In this document: positions 14,787 through 57,472 of the stretch, piece after piece
Layout of the letters: every line of letters begins with the position of its first letter
Position numbering within the stretch: position 1 is the first letter of the stretch
Origin: a virus
Reading direction: 5' to 3' (one strand)
DNA length: 64,000 nucleotides
IMG/VR virus record: IMGVR_UViG_3300036790_000270
Location: 53,212 to 117,211 of that record
Notes under the pieces: model-generated
The model's input: the letters and a program-made list of their open reading frames with translations, nothing else
Databases searched by the model: none
Told to the model about the DNA's origin: nothing
Program-made: the position numbers and the translations under genes

Positions 14787-14915
14787 GCGCCGGCGTCTGG
14801 GAGTTGGGTTTCGTAAACGACTTGGCCGGGCGTAGATTGATTGGGTCTCGCATGCGATATGGCCCCGGCGTAAGTAAGCTGGGTTTCGTGACCTGATTGG
14901 CCGGGAGCCCGGGTC
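14787..14915 (+). repeat. Three conserved-loop hairpins (units 3-5)
   Basis: Loops 14795-14824, 14832-14861 and 14870-14899 are each 30 nt with GGGTTTCGT, GGGTCTCGC and GGGTTTCGT at loop positions 12-20. Neighbouring loops share an arm (GCCGGGC at 14825, GCCCCGGC at 14862). They fill the gap between a + gene and the stop of a converging - gene. Confidence 0.85.
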
Positions 14916-15755: not shown

Positions 15756-15811
15756 GCCCGCGCCCGGCGTTACATGTTTGGGCCCCGCAAGTGGAATGGC
15801 CGGGCGCGGGC
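15756..15811 (+). repeat. Conserved-loop hairpin with 13-bp perfect stem (unit 6)
   Basis: Arms 15756-15768 (GCCCGCGCCCGGC) and 15799-15811 are exact reverse complements. The 30-nt loop 15769-15798 carries GGGCCCCGC. It sits between two - strand genes, with the motif on the + strand. Confidence 0.85.
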
Positions 15812-38240: not shown

Positions 38241-38397
38241 CCGGGCGTTACTACCTTGGGCCTCGTGTCTCGGGTGGCCCGGCGTCGTACGTTTGGGTTA
38301 CGTCTTGCTGGCCGGGGCGTTACTACCTTGGGCCTCGTGTCTGCGTTGGCCCCGGCGTTTGTGCTGTGGGCCTCGTCATGATGCTGGCCGGGACGCC
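38241..38397 (+). repeat. Array of four conserved-loop hairpins (units 13-16)
   Basis: Loops 38247-38276, 38284-38310 (27 nt, GGGTTACGT), 38319-38348 and 38357-38386. The first and third loops are nearly identical (GTTACTACCTT-GGGCCTCGT). Where one arm grows to GCCGGGGC its partner becomes GCCCCGGC, a compensating change. A strong + strand terminator follows 2 bases later. Confidence 0.85.
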
Positions 38398-38399
38398 AC

Positions 38400-38441
38400 G
38401 GCCCCGGGAGGCACTACACCATGCCTCCCGGGGCCTTTCCC
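38400..38441 (+). terminator. Strong hairpin with T-run, + strand
   Basis: GGCCCCGGGAGGC (38400-38412) and GCCTCCCGGGGCC (38423-38435) pair perfectly over 13 bp with a 10-nt loop, then TTTCCC. It suits termination of a + strand transcript coming through the hairpin array; no + strand gene is near. It may also slow - strand transcription. Confidence 0.7.
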
Positions 38442-39074: not shown

Positions 39075-40031
39075 TTACCGGCGGGCCTGCTCCAGCGCCT
39101 GGTGCGCCTTAGACAGGGCCAGCAGGTTGCCGTCCTTGCCGGGCAGCGGCAGGAAGTCCGGCACCGAGCTGGCCGCGAAGTACTTCAGGCCGGTCCGCGG
39201 GCGCACGTCGAAGTTCGGGTTCACCCGGGCGTAGTTCTCATTGCGGGCGTGCTTGTTCCACGCGGTGGTGAACGCGTACAGCTCCATCAGCCGCTTGTCG
39301 GCTGGCAGCCGGTCCCGGACCGTGCCGAGCAGCAGCCAGTTGTGCAGGGTAAGCGCCGGGTTGCCCCGGTCCAGGTTGGCGCCGGTGCGCACCGACTCCC
39401 AGAAGCCGTCCGGGTCAATCTTGGTGACCGTGCCGTCCTCGTCGCGCTCCGCCGTCCGCATGATCGCGTACCCGGCGACCGACGGGTTGGCCCGCACCGC
39501 CCGGTACAGCGCCTCGCCCCGGTGGATCGCGTCGGTGATTCCCGGTGCGTCCACCCACGCGTCCTGTGACGCCCGGGTCAGCGCCTGCTTGCCGGGGTTA
39601 CGCACCCCGTCGATGCCGTAGTTCTCGTACAGCGCCATGTACTTGGCGAGCACCGAGGCCCGCTTGTAATCGGGTATCGCCAGCATCCGCAGGGTGTCCG
39701 CGTAGGTGCGCTTGCGGCCCGTGTCGATGTACTCGGCCTCCTCTGTGGTGATGCCCCGGATGAACGGCAGGTACGTGGCGATGCCGGTCCGGATGATCGC
39801 CGCGAAGCGGTGCTGGCCGTCCCAGGCCCGGTCCGCGTCGTCCAGGTAAACGGGGCTGATCCCCGGGAAGAACGTGCCCTCCCGCAGGTTCAGCTCCATC
39901 ACCGCGGTATCCAGCTTCGACTGGCTGCGGTTGGCGTGCATCGTCTTCAGGTACCGCTCGGCGTCCTTCGGCGTCACCAGCGTCATCTCAAAGGTGACGT
40001 GCGCCGGGAACGGGACTTCGGTACTGGTCAC
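39075..40031 (-). CDS. DGQHR/ParB-like protein
   Basis: 318 residues from GTG 40031, chosen because GGAGGACCGC precedes it. ADRAWDGQHRFAAII is the DGQHR signature, related to ParB and DndB nuclease-fold proteins; RGITTEEAEYIDTGRKR follows, then a helical C-terminal half. In phages these proteins are linked to DNA binding or modification. A second ParB-type domain is at 49130. Confidence 0.7.
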   Translation of the reverse strand: MTSTEVPFPAHVTFEMTLVTPKDAERYLKTMHANRSQSKLDTAVMELNLREGTFFPGISPVYLDDADRAWDGQHRFAAIIRTGIATYLPFIRGITTEEAEYIDTGRKRTYADTLRMLAIPDYKRASVLAKYMALYENYGIDGVRNPGKQALTRASQDAWVDAPGITDAIHRGEALYRAVRANPSVAGYAIMRTAERDEDGTVTKIDPDGFWESVRTGANLDRGNPALTLHNWLLLGTVRDRLPADKRLMELYAFTTAWNKHARNENYARVNPNFDVRPRTGLKYFAASSVPDFLPLPGKDGNLLALSKAHQALEQARR

Positions 40032-40135
40032 GCGGTCCTCCTGAAAAGGGGATAGCAGAAGTTGTGTCATGGCTGCTCGGAACAAGCTGGCTGCGGTATC
40101 TATTCCGCGTCAGGGCCACCGCCCTCGCGAGCCCC

Positions 40136-40385
40136 GCAGGCGTCACGGGAATGGGTTTCGTGTCGACTTTGGCCTGCCAGGGGCCGGCGTTCTACCTGTG
40201 GGTTCCGTCCTCGGTTTGGCCGGGCGTTACTTGTTTGGGTCTCGTGAAGGCGTTGGCCCGGCGTGGTTCAGGCGGGTTCCGTGCTCGGTTTGGCCTGGCG
40301 CTGTGCCGCTGGGTTCCGTGAAGTAGTTGGCCGGGCCCGGCGTAACATCATTGGGTTCCGCCTCACTTTTGGCCGGGCCCGCGCC
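40136..40385 (+). repeat. Array of six conserved-loop hairpins (units 17-22)
   Basis: Loops start at 40142, 40189, 40226, 40263, 40300 and 40342, each 30 nt. Motifs: GGGTTTCGT, GGGTTCCGT, GGGTCTCGT, GGGTTCCGT, GGGTTCCGT, GGGTTCCGC. From the second to the fifth loop, neighbours share one arm and the period is 37 bp. The outermost arms extend the stems (CCCCGCAGGC with GCCTGCCAGGGG). Confidence 0.9.
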
Positions 40386-40550: not shown

Positions 40551-40882
40551 GCCCGGCGTTTGCCTTTTGGGTCTCGTAGGCCGTATGGCCGGGCCCGGCG
40601 TGGCGACATTGGGTCCCGTCAAGCTTGATGGCCGGGCCCGGCGTTTGTGGACTGGGTCTCGTGAGGACTATGGCCGGGCGTGATGGATTTGGGTCTCGTG
40701 TCTCAGATGGCCCGGCGTTGTCCTGTTGGGTTCCGTGTCGACTTTGGCCGGGCGTTACTGTCGTGGGTTCCGTTGCTCGGTTGGCCCGGCGTGCATCCAA
40801 TGGGTTCCGTGAACTTGATGGCCGGGCAGCACGGCGGCGGCGTTCCAGGAATGGGTTCCGTTACTACACTGGCCGCCTGCCC
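40551..40882 (+). repeat. Array of eight conserved-loop hairpins (units 23-30)
   Basis: Loops start at 40558, 40600 (31 nt), 40643, 40680, 40717, 40754, 40791 and 40842. Arms from the third loop on alternate GCCGGGC and GCCCGGC; two fused arms read GCCGGGCCCGGC. The array ends 2 bases before the stop of the IS110-like gene. Confidence 0.9.
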
Positions 40883-40883
40883 G

Positions 40884-41771
40884 CTACCGGCCGCGGTGCC
40901 GTCCCCGGTTCTCCTCCCCCACCCGGACCGTCCCGTACACCGGCGCGTCCCCGGCTGCCGTCAGCCACAGGTCCCGCAGGATCTCCTTACCGGTGTGCCG
41001 CAGCCCGATCGCGTGCACGTGCGACTTCTGGTACGGGTCCCCGGCCAGGGCGTAACCGAGCTTCACCTTGCCGCCGGCCGCGTCATCCGGGGTTGCCAGC
41101 GGGTCAGTGTCATCAGGGACGTGCGTCTTGCACTTGACGTACAGCTTCCCGCTGTACCCGCCCACGCAGTCCCGGGTGTGCACCCGCCCGCTGTAGGCTG
41201 CCTTCACGTCGTCGTAGACCTTCCGGTACCCGGTACCCGCCTTCGCGGTGCTCTTCACCTGCGCGACCGACATCAGGTAGACCAGCTTCTTCGCGTCGGG
41301 GCGCCCGTTGGCCATCAGCGCGTCCGCGTCGCCCTTCACGTTCCGGTTCTTCGGCGCGCCCACTGAGCAGTATTGCCACAGCTCGCCCACCCCCCGCGGG
41401 TGCTCCTCGTCGTCGATCAGGTGCCGCCCCGGGCCCTCGCCCTCCCAGTGCCGCGGGGAGGCCGTCCGCGGGTCACCGGTGATGCCCAGCAGCCGGGCCA
41501 GGGTATGCTCGCCGATCCCCGCGCTCTCCTGCTGCCAGCGCTGCACGCTTTCCGGCACCGTCATCCGGTAGCAGGCCGTCAGCTCCGCCTCCAGCCGCTT
41601 CTCCGCCTCCTTGTACAGCTCCAGCACCGGGCCGAGCGCGTCCAGCGTCACCGTCCCCGACCGCTTGGTGTTCTCGAACGCGATCCGGGCGGCCTGCGCG
41701 TCCGCGAACTCCTCCGCCCACATCCGCAGCTCGGTGTACGAGCCCGGGTTGGTGCGCCTGACATTCGTCAT
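40884..41771 (-). CDS. IS110-transposase-like protein lacking the RuvC-type catalytic half
   Basis: 295 residues from ATG 41771 with AAGGAGAAAAGG upstream. Residues about 45-95 are a coiled coil (LGPVLELYKEAEKRLEAEL). AGIGEHTLARLLGITGDP then matches the helix-hairpin-helix that opens the IS110 Transposase_20 domain. LWQYCSVGA, PDAKKLVYLMSVAQV and GYRKVYDDVKAAY follow in the same order as in that domain. The N-terminal DEDD domain is absent and the usual Ser near the G-x-K segment is not evident, so transposition by this protein alone is unlikely. Large hairpin arrays abut it on both sides. Known IS110 enzymes act with structured guide RNAs; a link here is inference. Confidence 0.6.
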   Translation of the reverse strand: MTNVRRTNPGSYTELRMWAEEFADAQAARIAFENTKRSGTVTLDALGPVLELYKEAEKRLEAELTACYRMTVPESVQRWQQESAGIGEHTLARLLGITGDPRTASPRHWEGEGPGRHLIDDEEHPRGVGELWQYCSVGAPKNRNVKGDADALMANGRPDAKKLVYLMSVAQVKSTAKAGTGYRKVYDDVKAAYSGRVHTRDCVGGYSGKLYVKCKTHVPDDTDPLATPDDAAGGKVKLGYALAGDPYQKSHVHAIGLRHTGKEILRDLWLTAAGDAPVYGTVRVGEENRGRHRGR

Positions 41772-41790
41772 TTCCTTTTCTCCTTGCGAT

Positions 41791-42439
41791 GGCCGGCGTA
41801 TTGTGTACGGGTTCCGTCGTGTGCATGGCCGCCGGGGCGTTAACAGGGTGGGTTCCGTGAGGCAGTTGGCCCGGCGTTGTTCTCTTGGGTTCCGTTGCTC
41901 GATTTGGCCGGGCCTGGCGTTAGCTAGTTGGGTTCCGTGAGGCAGTTGGCCGGGCGTTAACGTGGTGGGTTCCGTGACTCGGTTGGCCGGGCGTTACTGC
42001 CCTGGGTTCCGTGTGCCTGTTGGCCCGGCGTCGTGATTTTTGGGTTCCGTACCTGAAGTGGCCGGGCGTCATGTTTTTGGGTTCCGTGGAAGCGGTGGCC
42101 CGGCGTCATGGCATTGGGCCTCGTTACGGTGGTGGCCGGGCGTGCAGTCATTGGGTTTCGTTACTCAGTTGGCCCGGCGTGCGTCCAATGGGCTCCGTTG
42201 GAGTGGTGGCCGGGCGTTCAGCCATTGGGTCTCGTTAACTCAGTTGGCCCGGCGTGACCAGTATGGGTTCCGTTACGTAGCTGGCCGGGCGATACCTGAT
42301 TGGGTTCCGCGGGAGTGGTGGCCCGGCGTGGGTCGCATGGGTTCCGTAACGGGTTTGGCCGGGCGTAACACCGATGGGTCTCGTTGCGTGGTTGGCCTGG
42401 CGCCCGGACACCGGGTTCCGTCATGCGGCCGGCCTAGGC
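41791..42439 (+). repeat. Array of seventeen conserved-loop hairpins (units 31-47)
   Basis: Seventeen loops of 30-31 nt, from 41798 to 42431, at a 37-bp period. From 42023 to 42401 the eleven arms alternate GCCCGGC and GCCGGGC without exception until the last, GCCTGGC. Loops share GGGYYYCGT and terminal TG but differ in the 9 nt before and 8 nt after. It starts 20 bases upstream of the IS110-like start codon and ends inside the stop codon region of the next - strand gene. Confidence 0.92.
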
Positions 42440-42967
42440 GCCCACCGGGGCGTCCTGCCCCAGCAGGCTGTCCGGCAGCGCGCCGAACCGGTCCGCGTAA
42501 TCATCCAGGTCGGGGCAGCCCGCCTGCGCCAGCAGCGCCGCCGCGCTCTCGTGCCGGGCGATCGTCGCGTCCGCCCCGCTGACGTACCGGCGCTTGCACT
42601 CGCGCAGGAACGCGGCCCGCAGCCGGTGGTGCTCCGGGGTCAGCCGCCCCCAGGGAACCTGCCCCTGGCCCGGCACGTAGCAGGTCTCGCCGAGCAGCCG
42701 CCGCATCGCGTCCTCCGCCGGGTTGGTGTAGGCGGCCAGCTCACCGCGGACCGCCGGCGGGGCGGAGCTGAACGCCCGCTTCTCGCTGCGCCGCACGCTG
42801 CCCCGCCCGTTAGCCGAGACCCACAAGGTGACCGCCGGCAGGAAGGCATGCGGGCCGTTGCCCGCCGCCGCGTAGTTCTCCAGCATCCACTGCGCCAGCT
42901 GCCGCGCGGTAGCGCCCGGCCCCAGCTCCGCGTGCGCGGCCAGCAGCAGTTCCGTCAGTGCGTCCAT
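42434..42967 (-). CDS. Unknown protein
   Basis: 177 residues from ATG 42967; a longer frame exists but overlaps the upstream gene. Helical N-terminus (LTELLLAAHAEL, ARQLAQWMLENYAAAG), then an Arg-rich middle and a C-terminal helical part (LRAAFLRECKRRYVSG). Stop TAG lies within the last arm of the 17-loop array. No family recognised. Confidence 0.6.
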   Translation of the reverse strand: MDALTELLLAAHAELGPGATARQLAQWMLENYAAAGNGPHAFLPAVTLWVSANGRGSVRRSEKRAFSSAPPAVRGELAAYTNPAEDAMRRLLGETCYVPGQGQVPWGRLTPEHHRLRAAFLRECKRRYVSGADATIARHESAAALLAQAGCPDLDDYADRFGALPDSLLGQDAPVGA

Positions 42968-48194: not shown

Positions 48195-49137
48195 GCGTAT
48201 TGCTAAAAAGGGTAGTTCAGGTCGTTCAAACCGGACGCCAGGGAAACACGGGGTAACGGACAAGGTAGCCGGGCGCCTGTTCGGGATACTTCAGAGAGAA
48301 AGCACGCGCAGGAACGTCGAGTACGATCTCCGCCAGCCTGTGTGGAAGATACAAGGTTACGACTTGTGCGCCGGGGACGGTGTCTTCGCTGACGACGAGG
48401 CGTTTCACCGGAACACGTCGCCCGGGATATTCGCCTATCACGCTCAGTTTGCCGCAGGAACAGCGTTTGCCCTCCCGGTTGAGGCGCACCTGTACGAGAT
48501 CAAGGAAGCGAATTACCTGAGCCTTCTAGCCGCCATGCGGCGCTGGCTGCCTGAAATGCACAAGATTCAGCCGAGCAGGCGGTTCCATCCGGTTCCGTAC
48601 CAGGAAGTTTCCGAGGGAGTATTCCGCGCCGGCCGCGTTACGGTAACGCTGCACCACGGTGACGGCGCCAGCGCTTCCCTTGACGGAGTCGATCCCTATA
48701 CGGCCGTGCTCGTCTTGCACGATCCGAACTCGATGCTCGCCTGGCCGCTGACACCCGAGTGGCTCTGGCAGCTGCACAATCGCACCAACCTGGTGACCCT
48801 GGTGAACACCATGGGGTGCAACGTAGCCGGGATCAAGCGCATAAGCCCGGAAGAGCGCGACGGGTGGTTTACCCGGGTTACCGCAGTCCTCAGCGTGTCC
48901 TCCCGGTGGCACGACACGCTGTTCGCCAGCCTGCACGGCGACCCGGCCCAGTGGGCGTACCTGATTACCGTGCCGCGTGCCTTCTGGGCAGCTACTGAGA
49001 AGGAAACCCTCCGGTCGTTTGAAAAGCACGGGTTCAAGCTTGATACCGCCTGGTACCGGACAGACCCGGTGCGGTTCGCGGAACTTCAGGAGCAGCATTT
49101 CCTGCGGAAAACAGAACGGGAGGCTCCCGGTGCCTGA
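48184..49137 (+). CDS. TcmP-like protein (three-Cys-motif partner), methyltransferase-like fold
   Basis: 317 residues from TTG 48184 with GGAGGACCCG upstream. The basic N-terminus precedes YDLCAGDGVF, like a SAM-binding glycine loop, then TSPGIFAYHAQ and a VEAHLYEIKEANYLSLL strand-helix where an acidic residue should hold the cofactor. This is the layout of TcmP family proteins, which pair with phage Gp37/Gp68 (DUF5131) radical-SAM-like proteins, and such a protein is encoded next. Family assignment is by motif and neighbour. Less G/C-biased codons than its flanks. Confidence 0.55.
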   Translation: MAGKRIAKKGSSGRSNRTPGKHGVTDKVAGRLFGILQRESTRRNVEYDLRQPVWKIQGYDLCAGDGVFADDEAFHRNTSPGIFAYHAQFAAGTAFALPVEAHLYEIKEANYLSLLAAMRRWLPEMHKIQPSRRFHPVPYQEVSEGVFRAGRVTVTLHHGDGASASLDGVDPYTAVLVLHDPNSMLAWPLTPEWLWQLHNRTNLVTLVNTMGCNVAGIKRISPEERDGWFTRVTAVLSVSSRWHDTLFASLHGDPAQWAYLITVPRAFWAATEKETLRSFEKHGFKLDTAWYRTDPVRFAELQEQHFLRKTEREAPGA

Positions 49138-50572
49138 TTACGGTCCCTACCGGGTTCATCCGTTCGCCGACGAGTTTCCTCTTCTTGTCAACGACGAGTT
49201 CGACGCACTGGTCGCCAGCATCAAGGCGAACGGCCTGTACCAGAACATCCTGCTCACCGCGGACCAGTCCACGATCGTAGACGGCCGCAACCGTTACCGG
49301 GCCTGTATAGCGGCCGGGCTTGACCCGGTGTTCGACGTTCTGGAAGCGAACGTCAGCGAACCGGACCTGCTCGACATGATCCTCGCACTTAACCTCGATC
49401 GCCGGCACCTGAACCAGGCCCAGCGGGCTCTTATCGCACGGGCGTACGAACGCTATTACGCAGATGCTGTTCCCGCGCCCGTACGTGATGAGACTGGAAA
49501 GTACGTTTCCGCAGGTGAAACCGAAGGACCAGATCTGGTCCCGCGGACGGACGATCCGTCTACGCGCTCTGCGGCAAAGGCGGCCAAGGTTACGGGCGCG
49601 TCGCGGACCGGGGTGACGATGGTGCGGGCGATCGAGCGGGACGCGCCGGACCTGATCCCGCGGATGGCGGCGGGCAAGTTGTCGTTGAACGCAGCGGAGG
49701 CTGAGCGCAAGGCCCGGGTCGCCAGGCAGCCGAAGCCCGAGGTGGTGAAGCCTGCGCCGGTCTTGCTGACGCTGCTGACGCACACGGGCGAGGAGTTTCC
49801 GTACCCGAAGCCGCTGCACCCGGCGTCGTTCAACGAGACGCGCGGCGACGGCATTTCCTGGGCCGCGTGGTCATGGAACCCGGTGACCGGCTGCCTGCAC
49901 GGGTGTGACTACTGCTATGCCCGGGAGATCGCCACGTCTACCCGGTTCGCCGCGGCGTACCCGGCCGGGTTCACCCCGCTGTTCCACCCCGAGCGGCTAG
50001 AGGCCCCGAACCACACCCGCGTGCCGGTTCCGCGCCGGGAAGATCCTGCTTACAAGCGCGTGTTCGTCTGCTCGATGGCGGACCTTTACGGGCGCTGGGT
50101 GCCCGACGGCTGGATCGAGCAGGTGCACGCTTCGATGGCGGCCAGCCCGCAGTGGCAGTACATCACCCTGACCAAGTTCCCGGAGCGGTACGAGACGCTG
50201 CCCCCGCCGCCGGGAGCCTGGGTCGGTACGTCCGTGGACGAGCAGAAGCGGGTCAAGCGGGCTGAGAGCGTGTTCTCCAAGCTGGAGGGTGCGGCGGTGA
50301 AGTGGCTTTCGCTGGAACCGTTGCGTGAGTCGCTAGCGTTTACGGACCTGTCCGTGTTTGACTGGGTGGTCATCGGCGGACAGACGGCTACGGTGCAGCC
50401 CGATGGCCCGGTAGGACGGTTCGCACCGCCGTTTGAGTGGGTAGCCCGGATCTGGGCGCAGGCGAAGGAAGCAGGCTGCCGGGTGCACTTGAAGCCGAAT
50501 TTGCTGATTAGTGACGGGCATCCGGGGATGCAGCTGCCCGACGAGTATCCGGAGGTGTCGTCTTATGATTGA
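49130..50572 (+). CDS. ParB domain fused to Gp37/Gp68 (DUF5131) radical-SAM-like domain
   Basis: 480 residues from GTG 49130 with GGGAGG upstream. Residues 1-100 are a ParB/KorB N-domain: HPFADEFP, LVASIKANGLYQNI, VDGRNRYRAC, then a helix-turn-helix region to about 200. Residues about 235-480 are DUF5131: WSWNPVTGCLHGCDYCYA (CxxxCxxC cluster-binding loop), FVCSMADLYG, YITLTKFPERY, GTSVDEQ, WLSLEPL and WVVIGGQ. Codon use changes near 49580: the first third is less G/C-biased. A DNA-targeting ParB part joined to a radical-SAM-like part suggests nucleic-acid modification (inference). Confidence 0.8.
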   Translation: MPDYGPYRVHPFADEFPLLVNDEFDALVASIKANGLYQNILLTADQSTIVDGRNRYRACIAAGLDPVFDVLEANVSEPDLLDMILALNLDRRHLNQAQRALIARAYERYYADAVPAPVRDETGKYVSAGETEGPDLVPRTDDPSTRSAAKAAKVTGASRTGVTMVRAIERDAPDLIPRMAAGKLSLNAAEAERKARVARQPKPEVVKPAPVLLTLLTHTGEEFPYPKPLHPASFNETRGDGISWAAWSWNPVTGCLHGCDYCYAREIATSTRFAAAYPAGFTPLFHPERLEAPNHTRVPVPRREDPAYKRVFVCSMADLYGRWVPDGWIEQVHASMAASPQWQYITLTKFPERYETLPPPPGAWVGTSVDEQKRVKRAESVFSKLEGAAVKWLSLEPLRESLAFTDLSVFDWVVIGGQTATVQPDGPVGRFAPPFEWVARIWAQAKEAGCRVHLKPNLLISDGHPGMQLPDEYPEVSSYD

Positions 50573-54001: not shown

Positions 54002-54047
54002 GCGCGGCGCGTGCCAATTGGGTTCCGTGCGCTGTTTGGCCGCCCGC
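54002..54047 (+). repeat. Conserved-loop hairpin (unit 48)
   Basis: Loop 54009-54038 carries GGGTTCCGT; closing arms GCGGC/GCCGC. It begins at the stop codon of the HNH gene, between convergent gene blocks. Confidence 0.75.
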
Positions 54048-55047: not shown

Positions 55048-55123
55048 GTGCCGGGCGCGGGCCGCGGGGCGTGATGGATTTGGGTCTCGTGCTGCAATTG
55101 GCCCCGGCTCCCGCGCCCGGCAC
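55048..55123 (+). repeat. Conserved-loop hairpin with long stem (unit 49)
   Basis: Arms 55048-55070 and 55101-55123: outer 14 bp (GTGCCGGGCGCGGG) pair perfectly and the inner GGGGC/GCCCC closes loop 55071-55100. The first 21 loop bases equal those of the array unit at 40680, so the two share an origin. Confidence 0.9.
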
Positions 55124-55565: not shown

Positions 55566-55646
55566 GCCCGGCGTTTGGTCAATGGGTTTCGTTTCTCGTA
55601 TGGCCGGGCGTTCCGGAGTTGGGTTTCGTCTTGCCTCTGGCCCGGC
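55566..55646 (+). repeat. Two conserved-loop hairpins sharing an arm (units 50-51)
   Basis: Loops 55573-55602 and 55610-55639, both GGGTTTCGT, with arms GCCCGGC, GCCGGGC, GCCCGGC. Same period and arm alternation as the large arrays. Confidence 0.88.
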
Positions 55647-55880: not shown

Positions 55881-56233
55881 CTGCCTTCCCCCTTCAGCTC
55901 AGTCAGGGCCTCGTCCGCCAGGGCCTGCGCCCAGTCCGGCGCCTGGTCCAGCTCGAAGCTGTAGAACTTCTCACTCGCCGTCACGTTGCCCGGGGTGCCG
56001 TCCTTCTTGATCCGGCCGCCGCTGACGGTAAGCGAGCTGACCTTCAGGTTCGCGTAGCGGGGCAGCTCACTGTCCCGGAGCGTCCCGCAGGTCAGCTCTA
56101 CCCGCAGGCTGTCCGGCTGGTAACGCGCCAGGACGCTGCTGTACTTCACCGGCCGGTCCTCGACCTTCCCGCCGATCGTGTAGTAAGCGGTGAAAGACAG
56201 TTCGCCGGACAGGTGCGTTCTTGTCGCGTTCAC
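55877..56233 (-). CDS. Unknown beta-rich protein
   Basis: 118 residues from GTG 56233, overlapping the Ku stop. Several strands (ELSFTAYYTIGGKVE, SLRVELTCGTL, NLKVSSLTVSGG) and a C-terminal helix. No family recognised. Co-transcribed with Ku. Confidence 0.55.
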   Translation of the reverse strand: MNATRTHLSGELSFTAYYTIGGKVEDRPVKYSSVLARYQPDSLRVELTCGTLRDSELPRYANLKVSSLTVSGGRIKKDGTPGNVTASEKFYSFELDQAPDWAQALADEALTELKGEGR

Positions 56234-57084
56234 GCTACTTTTTCCTCCTTCGCCGCGGACGGCTTACGGGCCCGGGGCTTGCGCGCGGGCTTCGGCGCGG
56301 TCGCCCGGCTCGCCTTGATGGACGCCTCGATCGCCGCCATGATGTCCTGCGGCGCGGTTACCGCTGCCTCCGTGCGCGGCGCCGGGGTGCCGACCGCCTG
56401 CCCGGTTTCCAGTTTCGCCTGGATCACCGCCGCCAGCTTCTCCTCGCTCGCGTCCGTGAAAGAGGACCAGTCGAACGGCTCGTCGAGTGCCGCCACCAGC
56501 TGCTGCGCCTGCGCCAGTTCCGGGGCGCTGACCAGGGTTGCGGGCGGCGCCGCGAAATCCGGCTGCTGCACCGACGTCCCCCAGGCCAGCCGCTCCAGCA
56601 CCAGGTAGCCGTCCGGGGTGGCGTACAGCAGGGCCAGGGCCTCCCGCTGCCGCACCGCGATGCTCACTACCGCCGCCTTCCCGGTCGCGGTCATCGCGGC
56701 GGCCAGCAGCGCGTACGGCTTCTCGCCGCCGTCGCCCGGCTGCACGTAGTAACTGGTCTCGTGCGCGGTGCGCGGCACGGTAACCGGGTCGGTGAACTGC
56801 AGGACCTTTGCGTGCCGGCTCTTGTCGCCGAACGCCCGCGCCAGGTCATCCTTCTCCACCAGCACCGTGCGGCCGTCCGGCGCCGCGTACCCCATGGTGA
56901 CGTCCTCCCAGCCGACCGGCGCGCCGTCCGCCTCCGCGACGTTCTGCTGCCTGATCCGGCTGCCGTCACTGCGCCGTACCCGGTGCAAGGGCAGCTTGCC
57001 CTCACTGACCGCCGGGCCCAGCTTTACCGGGAAGCTCAGCATTGACACGCCGATCGTTCCCGTCCAGATGCTCCGCATGCTCAT
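56230..57084 (-). CDS. Ku-like DNA end-binding protein
   Basis: 284 residues from ATG 57084 with AAGGGAG upstream. The bacterial Ku pattern is clear: SIWTGTIGVSMLSFPVKL, LPLHRVRRSDGSRI, MGYAAPDGRTVLVEKDDL, YYVQPGDGGEKPYALLAAAM, VVSIAVRQREALALL. The Ku core ends near residue 200; a Lys/Ala-rich C-terminal tail (KPARKPRARK) follows, as in many bacterial Ku proteins. Ku bridges DNA ends for nonhomologous joining; phage Ku in mycobacteriophages Omega and Corndog recruits host LigD. No ligase is in the window. Confidence 0.88.
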   Translation of the reverse strand: MSMRSIWTGTIGVSMLSFPVKLGPAVSEGKLPLHRVRRSDGSRIRQQNVAEADGAPVGWEDVTMGYAAPDGRTVLVEKDDLARAFGDKSRHAKVLQFTDPVTVPRTAHETSYYVQPGDGGEKPYALLAAAMTATGKAAVVSIAVRQREALALLYATPDGYLVLERLAWGTSVQQPDFAAPPATLVSAPELAQAQQLVAALDEPFDWSSFTDASEEKLAAVIQAKLETGQAVGTPAPRTEAAVTAPQDIMAAIEASIKASRATAPKPARKPRARKPSAAKEEKVA

Positions 57085-57426: not shown

Positions 57427-57472
57427 GGTGCGGCGTGTAGAGGGTGGGTCTCGCGAGGAGGTTGGCCGCGCC
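57427..57472 (+). repeat. Conserved-loop hairpin (unit 53)
   Basis: Arms GGTGCGGC (57427-57434) and GCCGCGCC (57465-57472) pair with one wobble. Loop 57435-57464 carries GGGTCTCGC. Confidence 0.8.

Follow-up and report, generated by a model that had tools for sequence, protein, structure and literature searches.

The repeat array at positions 41,789–42,440 on the minus strand of the window (the whole analysed stretch of 64,000 nt, which forms the right part of a 117 kb virus record, G000) is very probably a phage-borne TIGR-TasA guide array, and the homologues of this phage genome suggest actinobacterial hosts. TIGR stands for Tandem Interspaced Guide RNA (Faure et al. 2025, PMC12045711). The locus belongs to the known TIGR-Tas systems; what is new is the shared, alternating arms and the dispersed guides. 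This reading is carried by the anatomy of the array, the comparative pairing of its arms, the identity of the neighbouring TasA protein and the conservation of the locus in relatives, all established by sequence analysis. According to the published description, TIGR arrays consist of two alternating 8–12-nt repeats (edge and loop) and spacers of ~9 nt (8–12) in a unit of ~36 nt; they adjoin a tas gene and are processed to 36-nt tigRNAs, and box C (CCA) and box D motifs are common to both repeats (PMC12045711).

First of all, the main array is built of 17 dual-spacer units whose edge repeats are shared and alternate. It takes up all of the 662 bp that separate tasA from the gene upstream of it on the same strand. 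On the plus strand the loop element TGGGYYYCGT occurs 17 times, interleaved with TGGCCSGGCGT arms, and its first and last copies are CGGGTTCCGT. The ten arms from 42,023 to 42,364 switch between GCCCGGC and GCCGGGC with zero exceptions; since the two versions differ at the central base only, the alternation is a C/G swap in GCC-S-GGC. An earlier note on this DNA had described seventeen loops at 41,791–42,439 with ten strictly alternating arms, and the sequence and repeat analysis confirmed this. The period of 37 bp given there holds as the start-to-start spacing of the regular part; three steps are of 38, and the 5′ third is less regular, with GCCGCCGGGGC at 41,828, a doubled arm GCCGGGCCTGGC at 41,907 and GCCGGGC followed by GCCGGGC again at 41,949 and 41,986. 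On the minus strand, each unit runs in the order edge repeat, 8-nt spacer A, loop repeat ACG-N4-CCA and 8-nt spacer B, and both repeats start with (A)CG and end with CCA on the tasA strand. The segments that the note had measured as 9 and 8 nt are variable as claimed, but they are 8 nt long, or 9 if the mostly-A base preceding the invariant CG is included. Over all units, none of the 16 spacer columns (two 8-nt stretches) exceeds 0.24 bit of information content, against 2.0 bit at the CG and at the initial C of the central CCA, that is to say, box and spacer columns are sharply separated. A coding repeat was considered and rejected, as the 37-bp period with its 38-bp steps disrupts every reading frame.

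Further arrays lie on the same strand. The second (40,551–40,860, downstream of tasA) contains seven full units, partial ones and two doubled-arm junctions; the third (40,152–40,379, between tasA and the PHROG 5931 gene) contains five full units and one partial; and degenerate TIGR-like units with edge and loop elements are found at 38,257–38,375. After the latter comes a strong 14-bp hairpin on the plus strand (38,400–38,440, z = −4.7) followed by CCTTTCCC, which is terminator-like. Elsewhere, the search of the window for known RNA families returned one tRNA and nothing else, its comparison with named phages gave no DNA match, and consensus promoters and terminators were no more frequent than in shuffles.

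The pairing of the arms was examined by comparison. A pattern scan of IMG/VR led to two relatives of the window phage that have these arrays too, G001 (IMGVR_UViG_3300036790_000261, 122 kb) and G002 (IMGVR_UViG_3300050821_007696, 84 kb). Both carry the same locus and show synteny with the window phage, many of the core proteins being 70–85% identical; the loci L010–L017 from a three-arm scan were rejected as chance repeats. In both relatives, the loop element has diverged to TGG-N4-CG and the spacing, the arms and the alternation are retained. Among neighbouring GCCSGGC arms of the three phages, 46 pairs are opposite and 2 equal (p = 8e-12), complementarity not having been among the selection criteria; of the equal pairs, one (G001:26620) is not part of an array. 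It is therefore concluded that neighbouring edges pair as 7-bp hairpins. Where two hairpins share no arm, doubled arms occur instead, GCCGGGCCCGGC three times in G000 and GCCCGCCCGGC twice in G001, and solitary units carry compensated, non-palindromic arms (for example GACGGGC/GCCCGTC, GCGGGGC/GCCCCGC and GGCGGGC/GCCCGCC). Covariation was assessed on 52 units whose loops measure 30 nt, excluding one more unit of this loop length, G002:68315. In this set 96.2% of cells are paired, a percentage biased upwards because the units were collected by a threshold of at least 6 of 7 pairs; double-sided changes number 29 against 10.8 in shuffles, and slid controls give far lower values. The pairing of neighbouring arms, as the note had proposed, and its expectation that related phages would keep the alternation thus both stand, with covarying arms and with doubled ones where hairpins are unshared.

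The product of tasA (40,884–41,771, minus strand, 295 aa) is identified by profile and fold matches as a nuclease-free Nop-domain protein that binds guide RNA. It belongs to PHROG 4285, which is annotated as "transposase", and has distant homologues in mycobacteriophages. A profile built from the three close TasA sequences alone matched no solved structure, and PF02371 (Transposase_20) gave no match; therefore the link was made through intermediate homologues and the fold. The profile of nine sequences (the window protein, its two relatives and six mycobacteriophage-type homologues) matches TasR (PDB 9mty) with E = 3.1e-17, in the Nop part only (residues 127–297 of 331), and TasH with E = 1e-8. 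An AlphaFold2 model from a 15-sequence alignment reached pLDDT 72 and pTM 0.73, superseding a poor model from three sequences (pLDDT 36), and the top ten Foldseek matches of the former are all TasH or TasR (E 2e-6 to 2e-5), with IS110-family recombinases ranking after them. It is concluded that the window protein is a member of the Tas/Nop family without a nuclease domain, namely a TasA. TasA-like genes with 30–38% identity in the alignment were also seen in bacterial contigs, L077 (Acidimicrobiaceae MAG), L078, L080 (Parafrankia soli) and L082 (Mycobacterium sp. PSTR-4-N), where they are perhaps proviral.

Compared with the TIGR-Tas systems, the locus has an adjacent Nop-domain Tas protein according to profile and fold matches, together with two alternating 8–12-nt repeats, variable spacers and a unit of ~36 nt. 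The guess of a guide array, which the note had placed among several, is borne out by the adjacent TIGR guide-RNA-binding protein and by loops with box C/D and dual-spacer layout; for the same reasons, the protein sponge, the recombination track and the switch listed beside it found no support. With the published TIGR-TasA(-ParB) systems the locus shares the nuclease-free Nop-domain protein, the CCA of box C, and arrays on either side of tasA as well as in the space that separates it from a conserved neighbour. It differs from them, as far as the published account describes them, in that edges form 7-bp hairpins with both neighbours through a one-base C/G alternation, that units of the three phages also lie outside the tas locus and that the conserved neighbour has no confirmed ParB likeness; box D is CG here, not UG as in TasR. 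CRISPR arrays likewise have regular repeats, unique spacers and an effector gene nearby, but here there are two alternating short repeats and split 8-nt spacers, and no cas effector or adaptation genes were recognised beside the array. The IS110 family, with its bridge RNA and transposase, has a similar fold (Foldseek places it just below the Tas proteins) and split guides; however, the protein matched here has only the Nop part and no DEDD domain, PF02371 is absent, no transposon ends were seen, and there are many guides instead of one two-loop bridge RNA.

The neighbour in question is the gene of a PHROG 5931 protein (39,075–40,085, minus strand), conserved beside tasA in the three phages and in the position of tasParB in published tasA operons. 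In these operons a ParB-like gene is described, and the arrays lie upstream, downstream and between the genes (PMC12045711). The PHROG 5931 protein itself gave no Pfam or PDB match and no detectable ParB domain, and the PF02195 search matched elsewhere only. A ParB-like gene does occur ~8 kb from tasA, at 49,130–50,572, encoding a DUF5131 protein with a weak N-terminal ParB_N match, and the phage also encodes a Ku protein at 56,230–57,084 (PF02735, E = 2.5e-27).

The guide strand was read from Fromanvirus, in which five stem-loop guides lie upstream of the tasA homologue on the sense strand of the gene, with CCA-N9-CG twice per loop. Because of this layout, the guide strand is taken to be that on which CG opens and CCA closes the repeats; for the window this points to the minus strand, on which tasA also lies. 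In a few edge arms, A stands opposite C on the minus strand (G opposite T on the plus strand); taken alone these would favour the plus strand, a minor point against the minus. Arrays flank tasA on both sides in the window, lie beside it in G001 and G002 and upstream of it in Fromanvirus. In 25 aligned Fromanvirus leaders, arms and boxes are nearly invariant, the spacers are hypervariable between phages, and alleles of the five hairpins are reassorted, as expected of a guide array whose targets change. These leaders, with five guides before TasA homologues annotated as "transposase" or hypothetical, include L041:3680-4000 (MN119377.1 Buttons), L040:3650-3990 (NC_028804.1 Barriga) and 23 further ones. 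Four metagenomic phage contigs with tasA homologues (L053, L054, L055 and L056) likewise have stem-loops within the 350 bases before the tasA match, where the boxes are again CCA and CG and each unit has arms of its own. The TIGR paper mentions phage loci with a citation of a mycobacteriophage review, so that the Fromanvirus loci may be among its tables (PMC12045711); no other paper in the literature searched joins TIGR and mycobacteriophage terms.

Outside the tas locus, the three phages contain 19 further units, all of them intergenic with respect to genes predicted by an in-house script. In the window these are on the minus strand and comprise TIGR-like units at 14,805–14,907 (full unit 14,825–14,869), ~25 kb from tasA; solitary units at 15,762–15,805 and 55,064–55,107; solitary units with altered arms at 54,002–54,045 and 57,428–57,471; and two units with a common arm at 55,566–55,646. 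The unit at 55,064–55,107 (G000:108275) has the identical 8-nt spacer B as that at 40,673–40,716 (G000:93884) in the second array, and this suggests recombination between units.

In terms of mechanism, the published TIGR systems allow a tentative scheme. The minus strand would be transcribed together with tasA, and the RNA would be cut inside the edge repeats into ~37-nt guide RNAs, or excised as 44-nt hairpins. A TasA dimer would grip each RNA by its edge and loop repeats, with spacers A and B pairing with opposite strands of a 16–18 bp DNA target. TasA would bind and bend this target, interfering with its transcription or replication; since the nuclease is absent, the effect would come from binding, not cutting. 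The targets are likely to be other phages, mobile elements or the host rather than the phage's own genome. Because the inner arms are shared, a single transcript could form full 7-bp hairpins only in alternate units, so that two registers are open to it; another possibility is a cut at the central base, which would leave GGC/GCC half-edges on every unit. That this base alternates so strictly is the ground for arguing that the intact hairpin matters at some step.

For the target search, a predicted target strand 5′-B-(0–2 nt)-rc(A)-3′ was derived here from the published 8-nt 3′ overhangs. Within the three genomes, exact, tolerant and wobble-only matches showed no excess over re-paired spacers, and matches close to each unit in its own genome showed no excess; the targets of 70 Fromanvirus units in 12 Fromanvirus genomes likewise did not exceed re-paired controls, and three joined 18-mer targets were unmatched in the named-phage collection, where queries so short have little power. 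Two matches are regarded as leads only. One Fromanvirus unit has its best match, 16/18, within a long gene of SarFire, likely its tape measure. The other concerns unit 36253 of G002, which lies 103 bp before the longest gene of that phage (probably the tape measure; the part searched had no PHROGs or Pfam match). At this site G000 has a unit as well (48679), with spacers other than those of G002 (36253). The predicted target of the G002 unit is ATTGGCGA-N-GCTTACAT, and the orthologous gene of G000, likewise the longest of its phage, starts (G000:48836) with ATTGGCGA-C-GCTTATAT, a 15/16 match; G002's own gene reads ATCGGGGA-C-GCGTACAT and differs at three wobble positions only. The chance of such a match at an orthologous neighbour is roughly estimated at ~0.004, post hoc. 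An IMG/VR scan for the same target gave 44 matches, mostly unrelated, L120 among them having a similar reading frame (RLIGEAYI).

From this match the idea arises that TIGR guides might serve as a nuclease-free homing or exclusion device, in which units beside conserved genes attack the same site in relatives and the carrier's own copy is recoded. Besides the wobble-only differences in G002, it is favoured by the fact that in G001 the start of the long gene, that is, the site apparently matched by the G002 guide, is interrupted by an HNH endonuclease gene (G001:36946-37610, L029:16946-17610; PHROG 374, E = 6e-41). The G001 reading frame directly after the matching site appears shifted. However, 15/16 matches are not clearly more numerous than among re-paired controls (3 seen, 0.8–1.6 expected), and the example is single and post hoc, with none among the other dispersed units, so that homing or exclusion is considered unlikely.

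The note had gone further and read the alternating arms as a switch between two mutually exclusive registers. Two such registers are a real consequence of the shared arms, and the array does occupy the whole gap upstream of tasA on the same strand, as a tasA leader flipping between two global hairpin registers to control downstream expression would be expected to. Against such regulation, units are also found singly and distant from any regulated gene that they might have in common, as well as downstream of tasA, and they face either way with respect to genes; the conserved boxes and variable spacers of the loops would be superfluous for switching, and the RNA fold of the entire main array is no more stable than those of shuffles (z = −1.25). 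A regulatory switch is thus very improbable, and the two registers more likely affect which units get processed than the control of genes. Just as improbable are tandem double-stranded sites for a DNA-binding protein (an operator, centromere or iteron array), which would suit dispersed, orientation-variable intergenic sites with fixed spacing and the ParB-like gene published in the tasA context, but not arms that covary as hairpins, including the non-palindromic compensated pair GACGGGC/GCCCGTC, nor the box and spacer pattern beside TasA, which fits TIGR.

The preferred reading, a TIGR-TasA guide array, bears on how such arrays are built and what they do. The TIGR-Tas systems are an RNA-guided family that has been described only recently. 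In the published example of a stem-loop array (Fig. 7 of PMC12045711), 13 stem-loops each have their own stem; here the 7-bp palindromic arms likewise form the stem of a unit, but most of them are shared. Private, doubled and shared arms occur together in one genome, as would be expected of an intermediate; with its shared-arm, doubled-arm and solitary stem-loop units, such a genome plausibly stands between the two published types of array. This phage group also shows that guides need not remain beside tas. If the exclusion idea were true, single guides beside conserved genes would hit competing relatives and spare the wobble-recoded carrier. Moreover, the five-guide loci of Fromanvirus, phages of Mycobacterium smegmatis whose spacers differ between siblings, offer a culturable laboratory system for the function and the targets of TIGR-Tas.
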